Assembly (NCBI GenBank): GCA_012514895.1 | Contig: JAAYZK010000233.1 | Coordinates: 1-53,558 of the forward strand | DNA from: Planctomycetota bacterium | GTDB taxonomy: Bacteria > Planctomycetota > Phycisphaerae > SM23-33 > FEN-1343 | DNA: 53,558 bases | Direction: 5' to 3' | Shown: piece by piece, positions 1,552-4,420 of the stretch | Layout: every line of letters starts with the position of its first letter | How positions within the stretch are numbered: position 1 is the stretch's first letter | The notes under the pieces: generated by a model | What the model saw: only the letters and a program-made list of their open reading frames with translations | Databases searched by the model: none | What the model was told of the DNA's origin: nothing | Program-made: the position numbers and the translations under genes

Positions 1552-2571
1552 CTACATGTCCCTTCCGATCGCCTCGGCCACCTTTCTGGCCCGCTTCATC
1601 ATGGCGCAGAACGCGTGGTGGTTGATCTGCTGGGCGGCGTCGGTGTAGGCGTGTTCGGGATCGCGGTGGACCTCGACGAGCAGGCCGTCGGCGCCGGCGG
1701 CGACGGCGGCCAGGCACATCGGGGGCACCATGTGGGCGTGGCCGGTCCCGTGCGAGGGATCGACCACCACCGGCAGATGCGTCCGCTCCCGCAGGGCCGG
1801 CACGATCGCCAGCGGCAGCGTGTTGCGGACGTAGTCCTCGAACGTGCGGATCCCACGCTCGCACAGGATGACGTTGGGGTTGCCGGCGTTGATGATGTAT
1901 TCGGCGGCCAGGAGGAACTCCTCCATCGTGCTGGAGGGCCCGCGCTTGAGGATGACAGGCTTGTCGACCTTGCCCACCGCTTCCAGCAGCGGGTAGTGCT
2001 GCATGTTGCGGGCGCCGATCTGCAGCACGTCGGCGACGGCGGCGACCTGCTGGACGGTCTCGCTGCGCAGGACCTCGGTGACGATCGCCAGGTGAGTCTC
2101 GGCGCGGGCCTCGGCGAGGATCTCCAGGCCCTTGGCCTGGAGGCCCTGGAAGTCGTACGGGCTGGTCCGGGGCTTCCACGCCCCGCCCCGCAGGGCGATC
2201 GCCCCGGCCTCGGCGACGGCCCGGGCGGTCTGGAGGAGTTGTTCGCGGCTTTCGACGGCGCAGGGGCCGGCGATGACGCCGATCTTCTGGCCGCCGAGCG
2301 TCGCGCCCGCCGGGCCGATGGCGATCTCGGTCCTCTCCTGGCGGACCTCGCGGCTGGCCATCTTGTACGGCGCGAGGATCGGGACGATCTTCTCGACCAT
2401 CGGGGCATTCTCGATGGCGCCCTTGTCGACGGCGCGCTTGTCGCCGATGCACGCGATCACGGTCCGGTCGGTTCCGACGATCGGATGGTCCTTCAGCCCG
2501 TACTCCCGCACCAGGTTGATGACGTGCTGGATCTGTTCGGGCGTGGCGTTGGGTTTCATGACGACGATCAT
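1552..2571 (-). CDS. aroF: 3-deoxy-7-phosphoheptulonate synthase (DAHP synthase, class I beta type)
   Basis: Catalyses the first step of the shikimate pathway, joining phosphoenolpyruvate and erythrose 4-phosphate. Residues 1-70 form the small ferredoxin-like regulatory domain typical of the AroF/B. subtilis type, and residues about 85-339 the KdsA-like barrel. Visible motifs include GPCAVES (102-108), the [11 protein letters not shown] phosphate and PEP site, [20 protein letters not shown] and the metal-site VDPSHGTGH. The ATG overlaps the serS stop codon by ATGA, so aroF is translated from the serS message. The leader upstream of serS contains consecutive Tyr, Trp and Phe codons, which implies attenuation by the end products of this pathway. 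The class I beta fold is clear; which aromatic amino acid inhibits the enzyme cannot be read from sequence. Confidence 0.95.
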
Positions 2572-3839
2572 CTCGGTTCAATCCTTTCCATGCCGCCCAT
2601 GGCGGGGCGGAGAACCTCCGGGACCGTGACCGATCCGTCGGCGTTCTGGTACAGCTCGAGGATGGGAATCAGGATCCGCGGCGAGGCGATGACGGTGTTG
2701 TTCAGCGTGTGGCAGAAGCGGATCCTGCCGTCCGCGCCGCGGTACCGCAGGGACAGGCGGCGGGCCTGGAACTCGTAGAAGCGGCTGGCCGAGTGGGTCT
2801 CGCCGTAGCCGGCGCGGCTGGGCATCCACGTCTCGATATCGAACTTCTGGACCTGCCCCTGGCCCAGGTCGCCCGTGCAGACGTTCACGACGCGGTAGGG
2901 CAGCTTGAGGGCCTTCAGGACGTCCTCGCTGTTGGCGAGAATCTCCTGGTGGAAGGCGATGGACTCCTGGACGTCGTTGCGGCAGAGGACGACCTGCTCG
3001 ACCTTGTCGAACAGGTGGATGCGGTAGAGCCCGTAGGTGTCCTTGCCGGCGGCGCCGGCCTCGCGGCGGAAGCAGGTGCTCAAGGCGCAGTAGCGCTTGG
3101 GCAGGTCGGCCTCCTCGAGGATCTCGTCGCTGTGCAGGGCCGTCACGGGCACCTCGGCGGTGCCCACCAGGCTCAACTCGTCGCGCTCGGCCAGGTAGGC
3201 CTGGTCGCGCCCGACGGGGAAGTAGCCCGTGCCGTACATGACTTCCTCGCGGACCAGGACCGGCACCGTCAGGGGCGTGTAGCCCTTGGCGACCATCATG
3301 TCCATCGCCAGCCGCAGCACCGCCTGGTGGAGCATGCAGCCGGCGCCCTTGAGGATGTAGTTGCGCGAGCCGGCGAGCTTGACCCCGCGGGGCATGTCGA
3401 TGATGTCGAGCTTCTCGCCGAGCTGCATGTGGTCCAGCGGCTCGAAGTCGAAGCGGGGGACCTCGCCGACGCGGCGGAGTTCGACGTTCTCGGTGTCGTC
3501 GGCCCCCAGCGGCACCTCCGGGGCGGCCGGCTGGGGCACCAGCAGCAGCAGTTCCCGCAGCTTGGGCTCCAGTTCCTCCAGAACGTCCGAGGCCGCCTTG
3601 CCCTGGGCCTTCAGCTCGGCCATCTCGGCGATTTTGGCGTCCTTTTCGGCACCGGTGAGCTTGGGGATCGCCTTGCCGGCGGCGTTCTGGGCGGTGCGGA
3701 CGTCCTGCAGCTTCCGCTGGGCGTCCAGCACGCGGCGGTCGATCTCGATGATGGCCGGGATGTCCACGTCGATCCGCTTGTCGGCGGCGGCCTTGATGTA
3801 CGCCTCACTGTTGGCTCGCAAGTCCTTGATGTCGATCAT
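2568..3839 (-). CDS. serS: Serine--tRNA ligase
   Basis: Class II synthetase charging tRNA-Ser (and tRNA-Sec if present); 423 aa, normal length. The first 110 residues are the long antiparallel coiled-coil arm (TAQNAAGKAIPKL and following) that grips the tRNA variable arm. Motif 2 is seen in CFRREAGAAGKDTYGLYRIH and motif 3 in the conserved N-N-T-x-x-A-S-P-R-I block near the C-terminus. In place of the common serine/cysteine patch before FQARR the protein has HSASRFYEFQARR, a mild deviation. The ATG at 3839 (MIDIKDLR) matches family starts; an upstream extension would run into the leader region. It is the first gene of the serS-aroF operon and sits 123 bp downstream of an attenuator terminator. 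Confidence 0.95.
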   Translation of the reverse strand: MIDIKDLRANSEAYIKAAADKRIDVDIPAIIEIDRRVLDAQRKLQDVRTAQNAAGKAIPKLTGAEKDAKIAEMAELKAQGKAASDVLEELEPKLRELLLLVPQPAAPEVPLGADDTENVELRRVGEVPRFDFEPLDHMQLGEKLDIIDMPRGVKLAGSRNYILKGAGCMLHQAVLRLAMDMMVAKGYTPLTVPVLVREEVMYGTGYFPVGRDQAYLAERDELSLVGTAEVPVTALHSDEILEEADLPKRYCALSTCFRREAGAAGKDTYGLYRIHLFDKVEQVVLCRNDVQESIAFHQEILANSEDVLKALKLPYRVVNVCTGDLGQGQVQKFDIETWMPSRAGYGETHSASRFYEFQARRLSLRYRGADGRIRFCHTLNNTVIASPRILIPILELYQNADGSVTVPEVLRPAMGGMERIEPR

Positions 3840-3962
3840 CGTCGTGATCCTCTGTCCGTCGGGTCCACCGGCCCCGGTGTCAGCAGGGGTTCTGTGTTCA
3901 GATCGGCCGTCATCCACACGGCTTCGATTGCCAAGGTGACCTCAGCAGATACCCATTCCAAT

Positions 3963-3997
3963 AAAAAAGGCCTCAAGGCCGGTTGCGGTCTTGAGGC
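3963..3997 (-). terminator. Attenuator terminator of the serS-aroF operon
   Basis: On the minus strand GCCTCAAGACC pairs with GGCCTTGAGGC (10 of 11 positions) around the loop GCAACC, followed after one base by six T residues. It lies between the leader peptide ORF and serS, inside the transcript, and so acts as a conditional terminator rather than a gene end. A possible antiterminator is GAGG-acc-CAGGT (4039..4028, straddling the leader stop codon) pairing with ACCTG-ag-CCTC (4003..3993), which would sequester the 5' arm. A second possible pairing joins GGTTGCG inside the leader ORF with the loop CGCAACC. A folding calculation is needed to choose between them. Confidence 0.85.
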
Positions 3998-4025
3998 TCA
4001 GGTTCAGGTTGTCATCGCGATGACG

Positions 4026-4139
4026 CTACCTGGGTCCTCCCGGCCGCGGCCGGCGCGAGCTGCTAAACCAATACGACGATCGCGCAACCAGGCTGCGATA
4101 GGAGCGGGTGACGTCGAGATGCACCGTGACGGTAGCCAT
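4026..4139 (-). CDS. Leader peptide for serS-aroF attenuation (37 aa, Ser/Tyr/Trp/Phe-rich)
   Basis: A 37-codon ORF ending 28 bases before the intrinsic terminator. Numbering from the ATG at 4139, it has Ser at 13, 16, 21, 22, 26, 27 and 28, Tyr at 14 and 23, Trp at 24 and Phe at 25, so the core reads S-S-Y-W-F-S-S-S. Tyr23 and Phe25 use TAT and TTT, the minor codons in this GC-rich genome, as expected for control codons. GGAG with 6 nt spacing supports the ATG at 4139; an upstream in-frame ATG at 4151 would give 41 aa. The residue choice mirrors the two downstream genes: serine for SerRS and the three aromatic amino acids for DAHP synthase. A regulatory peptide with no independent function is the best reading. 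Confidence 0.82.
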   Translation of the reverse strand: MATVTVHLDVTRSYRSLVARSSYWFSSSRRPRPGGPR

Positions 4140-4150
4140 CGTATGCTCCA

Positions 4151-4179
4151 TTCTTATCGTCACGGCAGGGATAGGTCAA
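4151..4179 (-). promoter_or_regulatory. Candidate promoter of the serS leader
   Basis: On the minus strand TTGACC (4179..4174) is followed after 17 bases by TAAGAA (4156..4151). The -35 box is good (5 of 6), the -10 box weak (3 of 6). Transcription would start within a few bases of the leader ATG at 4139, giving an almost leaderless leader-peptide mRNA. The weak -10 box makes this tentative. Confidence 0.4.
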
Positions 4180-4420
4180 TAGACTTTCCGGGCTGCATTC
4201 CGCCGGCCGCTCAGGCGCAACGGATAGGAGCCGCAGAGGACGCCGAGAGCACAGGGTCTTCAGCGGCAAGCAGTTGCGGCGCCAGCCCTCCCCGGGGCTC
4301 TCTGTGCCCGTCGCGGCTGAGCCGTTGCGGTCGGGCTCCGTTTGGCGTGGCGAGTCGGCGGCGGGGGTCGTACAATGGAGGTGTCCAGCCGCCACGAGAC
4401 CCTCTAACGGGAAGAGAGCC

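Follow-up and report, generated by a model that had tools for sequence, protein, structure and literature searches.

In Corynebacterium glutamicum, a leader with the codons Phe-Tyr-Phe attenuates the DAHP synthase gene of aroR-aroF (Neshat et al. 2014, via PMC11802643; PMC4046766), and in Acholeplasma the motif uORFC-13-1, a Phe-codon uORF before an intrinsic terminator, occurs exclusively upstream of aroF (PMC8632094). Stalling at cognate codons prevents the terminator in the pheST, pheA and trp attenuators of E. coli (PMC11802643), and uORFC-8-2 of Rhodobacterales is a cysS attenuator with Cys codons (PMC8632094). Here we analyze a 53,558-nt stretch of DNA from a Planctomycetota bacterium (contig JAAYZK010000233.1; hereafter the window), in which, as judged by comparative sequence analysis, a leader upstream of serS and aroF is very probably a ribosome-mediated transcription attenuator and a member of a Planctomycetota family conserved for aromatic amino-acid genes.

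The leader shares with aroR-aroF the consecutive aromatic codons and the proposed ribosome-mediated attenuation of a DAHP synthase gene, but, compared by description only, the C. glutamicum leader is presented with Phe-Tyr-Phe only, without Trp or Ser codons or serS, and belongs to another phylum. Aromatic codons upstream of DAHP synthase, as in aroR, are found in planctomycete leaders that precede aroF alone; in the window, serS intervenes. With uORFC-13-1 it shares a uORF with Phe codons and an intrinsic terminator before aroF, but that motif has Phe codons only, is confined to Acholeplasma and is reported without Tyr, Trp or Ser codons or serS (PMC8632094). The E. coli pheST system, an aminoacyl-tRNA synthetase operon under attenuation, is paralleled by a pheS copy in the genome of one relative (locus L112, below), and the E. 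coli attenuators each have single-amino-acid specificity, whereas the planctomycete leader would serve three aromatic amino acids and possibly serine. In uORFC-8-2, too, codons of a uORF control the gene for the cognate aminoacyl-tRNA synthetase, but they are Cys codons before cysS alone, with no coupling to another amino-acid pathway (PMC8632094). The open-access papers searched yielded no description of aromatic-gene attenuation by leader peptides in Planctomycetota, of a leader reading all three aromatics, or of serS-aroF under one leader.

Results

A short leader precedes serS and aroF

The leader and the genes it would control lie on the minus strand of the window:

4150..4179, minus strand: putative sigma-70-like promoter, TTGACC (4179-4174), 18-nt spacer, AAGAAT (4155-4150), from a consensus scan
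4026..4139, minus strand: leader peptide ORF, 37 codons plus TAG, from ATG at 4139 to TAG at 4026, read directly; homologous leaders stand at the equivalent site in relatives
4056..4079, minus strand: control codons Ser-Ser-Tyr-Trp-Phe-Ser-Ser-Ser (TCG TCG TAT TGG TTT AGC AGC TCG), read directly; an aromatic- and Ser-rich core is common to relatives
2568..3839, minus strand: serS, seryl-tRNA synthetase, first controlled gene; an ORF with orthologues across the order
1552..2571, minus strand: aroF, DAHP synthase, second controlled gene, its start overlapping the serS stop; an ORF with orthologues

A previous sequence-only reading of this DNA had proposed an attenuator built on a 37-codon ORF with seven Ser codons and an uninterrupted Tyr-Trp-Phe triplet, and direct reading of 4139-4026 on the minus strand bears out this description: the translation is MATVTVHLDVTRSYRSLVARSSYWFSSSRRPRPGGPR, with seven Ser residues and the run SSYWFSSS. 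The Tyr and Phe codons of the triplet are rare, as it had also claimed: in 33 window genes TAT accounts for 8.7% of the codons for Tyr and TTT for 5.6% of those for Phe. By chance, a 37-codon frame would contain Y, W and F in a row, whatever their order, 0.0013 times, and would hold seven or more Ser with a probability of 0.0007. The leader is a short frame enriched in codons for the end products of the pathway it would control. Downstream, on the leader's strand, start serS (3839) and aroF (2571), by family the genes for the seryl-tRNA synthetase and DAHP synthase that had been placed behind the leader and terminator. In the other direction aroA is divergent, lying on the opposite strand from about 4421 onward; hence no same-strand upstream gene explains the terminator, which would end only transcripts begun in the intergenic region.

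The promoter-like site is the sole one between 3800 and 4500 in the consensus scan (one found, 0.1 expected). As a putative promoter it would have the RNA begin just a few bases 5' of the leader ATG, a spacing that counts against the attenuator. GGAG at 4149-4146 is a possible ribosome-binding site for the leader, provided that the RNA starts far enough upstream. Both here (4150-4139) and upstream of the leader at locus L285, promoter-like sites end a few to about 12 bases before the ATG, so close to it that the mRNAs of the leaders may be wholly or almost leaderless. Also within the intergenic region between leader and aroA, CTCTCGGCGTCCTCTGCGG (4231-4260) recurs many times in several genomes of the same order, for example in at least five places in genome G026, and looks like a dispersed repeat.

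Competing helices between the leader and serS

Two mutually exclusive structures occupy the space between the control codons and the first gene:

4028..4040, minus strand: antiterminator 5' arm, GAGG (4039-4036) and CAGGT (4032-4028), spanning the leader end and stop codon; from folding of the window, with an equivalent arm in 33 leaders
3993..4003, minus strand: antiterminator 3' arm, ACCTG (4003-3999) and CCTC (3996-3993), overlapping the terminator 5' arm; from folding
3962..3997, minus strand: intrinsic terminator, stem-loop GCCTCAAG-ACCGCAACCGG-CCTTGAGGC followed by CTTTTTTA; from sequence, the helix covarying across eight serS-aroF attenuators

The terminator begins 28 nt past the leader stop codon and thus stands, with its T tract, between the leader and serS, where the sequence-only reading had put it. 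That reading had also named the competing pairing, in which 4039-4036 pair with 3996-3993 and 4032-4028 with 4003-3999, and RNA folding before the terminator 3' arm exists returns it as part of the structure. With a ribosome placed on the Tyr, Trp or Phe codon, the window folds into the same GAGG/CCUC and CAGGU/ACCUG helices. The full-length RNA adopts the terminator fold, which is more stable, even with a stalled ribosome; antitermination must therefore be kinetic, the antiterminator forming first, as such switches usually require.

From this arrangement we infer a mechanism like that of a classical attenuator, in which a ribosome would translate the leader close behind RNA polymerase and, when tRNA charged with Tyr, Trp or Phe is in short supply, would stall on the control codons, leaving the leader end and stop codon free to pair with the terminator 5' arm, so that the antiterminator would form and transcription would read through into serS and aroF. 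When charged tRNAs are plentiful, the ribosome would run on as far as the stop codon and shield the arm, the terminator would form and transcription would stop. In serS-aroF operons, too little charged tRNA-Ser would probably be answered in the same way, through the Ser codons.

Recurrence in relatives

As a protein, the leader gave a convincing match in its own genome only and no clear homologue elsewhere among 298 genomes of the class, as would be expected if it were a random ORF beside an ordinary terminator. The best other protein match, in genome G068, has an internal stop and no serS or aroF context and was rejected. (G-, L- and f-numbers are working labels for genomes, loci and families.) Comparison of the leader-region DNA with 40 relatives returned short matches only, one of which is syntenic and real: in G002, from a second genus of the same family (locus L003), a 37-nt match lies exactly upstream of serS, within a locus that has the leader frame MADRTLKSALFFSFRGYAARFSRSRRRS, with F and Y and without W, and then the hairpin GCCTCAAGACTGACAGCGGTCTTGAGGC, a terminator whose poor T tract speaks against the attenuator. 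No leader was found upstream of serS-aroF in G001, of the window's family, or in most genomes of f2, of the same order, and none was evident before the serS-aroF operons of f9, f10 and f15. Absence of the leader or its aromatic triplet from close relatives, which the sequence-only reading had held would refute it, is thus half the case, G001 having no leader and G002 a leader without W; this is not decisive, because these closest relatives are other genera and the wider comparison favors the leader. Since many serS-aroF operons, including most in the window's order, have no leader, there have evidently been repeated losses or gains of the device.

Scanning of serS loci recovered leaders that end at a terminator, all rich in aromatic codons and most of them in Ser, in L104 (SLFSYYSWFWFSREVRSGA), L112 (IYSSYFSGWYWFAHLAS), L119 (STLFSSYYFWYSFSPYRRCGA), L120 (SSFAYSFWFYWYRRPGA), L122 (LVLFSFSWWFYFDGDRRLRA) and L124 (GWFGYFWFSRRPRLRA). 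A covariance model of the serS-locus leaders added L140 (SLYSYSSWFWYSRYRRRRA), again before serS-aroF, and found leaders directly before aroF without serS, such as FGFWFNGYFYPAGQRAS. Leaders of serS-aroF, some of them from draft metagenome bins, are found in the window's family, in f13 (six genomes) and in the lineage of L112, whose SerRS resembles that of f15 members (68-70%) more closely than that of f13 (63-67%). Leaders of aroF alone occur in four families of the class (f6, f8, f19 and f20) and, at L275 and L282, in families outside it (f57 and f87). Upstream regions of aroF were taken from 100 genomes; 31 have a terminator, and in 21 of these 31 an aromatic leader ends there, against an average of 3.85 and a maximum of 8 in shuffles that kept the terminators, a background from which a handful of the 21 could have arisen incidentally. 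As the comparison indicates, serS belongs to the arrangement in only some lineages and the device is primarily an aroF attenuator.

Two further loci stood apart from the leader set. Upstream of serS at L130:2853-2975, a typical terminator is kept (GCCTTGAGACGC..GTCGCTCAGGGC) but aromatic codons are missing from the leader, and the locus may be an attenuator in decay. At L009:3162-3304 (minus strand), in a genome of the window's order, a possible degenerate leader (CRSSWFEGFRAPPEVPGLTAN; RSSWFEGF) and a terminator lie about 400 nt before serS; it was excluded from the set.

Conservation of the proposed switch

Across all lineages, the arm that pairs with the terminator 5' arm is made up of the last part of the leader ORF and its stop codon; in L112, for example, GCGUCUUGAGGC pairs with GCCUCAAGACGC, and the arm includes the stop codon, UGA. 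This double use of the leader end explains why the f13 peptides are rich in Arg and Ala towards their ends. In eight serS-aroF attenuators, the terminator helix has 93% of alignment cells paired, with both sides changed in 6 of 11 pairs and a covariation score reached by 0 of 500 shuffles. For the antiterminator, 12 pairs have 88% of cells paired and a covariation score reached by 0 of 500 shuffles, in an alignment of seven sequences that was hand-trimmed around the arms and built on the pairing, and so is biased towards it. Independently of any alignment, native duplexes of leader and terminator arms average -21.5 kcal/mol, versus -16.3 when arms are swapped (0 of 20000 permutations) and -14.7 when they are swapped with other clades.

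Folding calculations gave the behavior expected of an antiterminator that a ribosome at the stop codon covers and a stalled ribosome leaves free. In 32 of 33 leaders, most of the terminator 5' arm is engaged upstream when nothing covers the leader end, and in 31 of 33 this is no longer so with a ribosome over the stop codon. The window is borderline in this calculation (0.49) and clear with a stall at the YWF codons.

These comparisons bear on three other explanations. One is a separate gene for a small RNA or small protein that has a terminator of its own and no part in the control of serS-aroF. A short transcript from it, ending at 3962, would fit the promoter and terminator, but we consider it highly improbable, as several families share the site before aroF or serS-aroF, the peptide is unconserved except for its aromatic codons and for what the arm imposes on it, the bases of the antiterminator covary, and the window has no Rfam match. 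Despite the lack of a clear protein homologue, we give still less credence to chance, because the architecture recurs far above the shuffled expectation and both helices covary. In other phyla, T-boxes, which sense uncharged tRNA directly, regulate amino-acid genes and those of aminoacyl-tRNA synthetases, and such an element or another riboswitch might be considered at this site; the conserved part here is instead a reading frame ending at the antiterminator, an Rfam search of the window returned no T-box and no other family, and we regard this as the least probable explanation of all. The attenuator originally proposed accordingly stands on its three-part architecture, which, with arms that covary, is found again in front of serS-aroF and of aroF in Planctomycetota of several families.

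Amino acids probably read by the leader

Aromatic codons are universal in the leader set. Relatives carry four to nine mixed F, Y and W codons per 12-codon core and do not keep the exact Y-W-F triplet; what is preserved in the upstream comparison is the architecture and the aromatic codons, not the exact sequence or triplet. Aromatic sensing is, at the level of sequence comparison, well supported.

The role claimed for the serial Ser codons is less secure. Ser makes up 22 of 49 non-aromatic residues (45%) in the 12-codon cores of nine serS-aroF leaders and 14 of 132 (11%) in those of 25 aroF-only leaders (Fisher p = 1.3e-6, kinship ignored), and in averages by clade the serS clades, three out of nine, rank above all others (exact p = 0.012). 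Yet Ser is weak or absent in the leaders of L003 and L124, the core of the latter having none. A search for Ser-rich leaders in 89 regions upstream of serS passed only the window and L112, both of them aromatic leaders, and so revealed no serine-only serS attenuator in these regions.

A paralogous attenuator in the genome of L112 offers a comparison within one organism:

L272:1363-1491 (G400:C9:16862-16990): pheS attenuator paralogue, leader MVYANPLCQFYFSGQFRFAHRAS, directly before pheS

Its core, LCQFYFSGQFRF, has four F, one Y, no W and one S, and the serS-aroF core of L112, IYSSYFSGWYWF, has two F, three Y, two W and three S. The pheS copy has thus lost Trp and has less Ser and more Phe, which supports a tuning of the control codons to the downstream gene.

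Under one reading, Tyr, Trp and Phe would be sensed for aroF, the Ser codons would be filler and serS would be carried along as the first gene. In its favor, aroF-only leaders share the design without Ser, using Gly, Ala or Thr between the aromatics; one Ser, in the TTTAGC after Trp-Phe, falls within a motif, TGGTTTA-C/G-C, where other leaders code Thr or Asn and share the RNA; and the core of L124 is free of Ser. The enrichment of Ser with serS, at residue and clade level, and the fewer Ser codons of the pheS paralogue argue against it, and we hold its chances to be somewhat short of even. Serine sensing in serS-aroF operons is suggestive on the same codon evidence, and we put at about even the chance of a four-way switch, in which a shortage of Tyr, Trp, Phe or Ser would each induce serS and aroF and the codon set would be re-tuned to aroF, serS-aroF or pheS.

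Discussion

Natural copies of one attenuator before aroF, serS-aroF and pheS allow the adaptation of control codons to the downstream gene to be read directly. If serine is truly sensed, a single switch would join Ser charging to aromatic synthesis, a link that makes sense because tryptophan synthesis consumes serine. The attenuator family would further imply transcription-translation coupling in Planctomycetota, a phylum in which coupling has been little studied.

Weak matches of the R1 and R2 models that did not precede aroF, serS or pheS were counted as chance. In f13 genomes, weaker R1 matches lie upstream of other genes (L265-L268, L145 and L151), that at L151 before a 2-isopropylmalate-synthase-like frame with a Leu-rich leader, GLLMLLRSAP, and these may be attenuators of other amino-acid genes.
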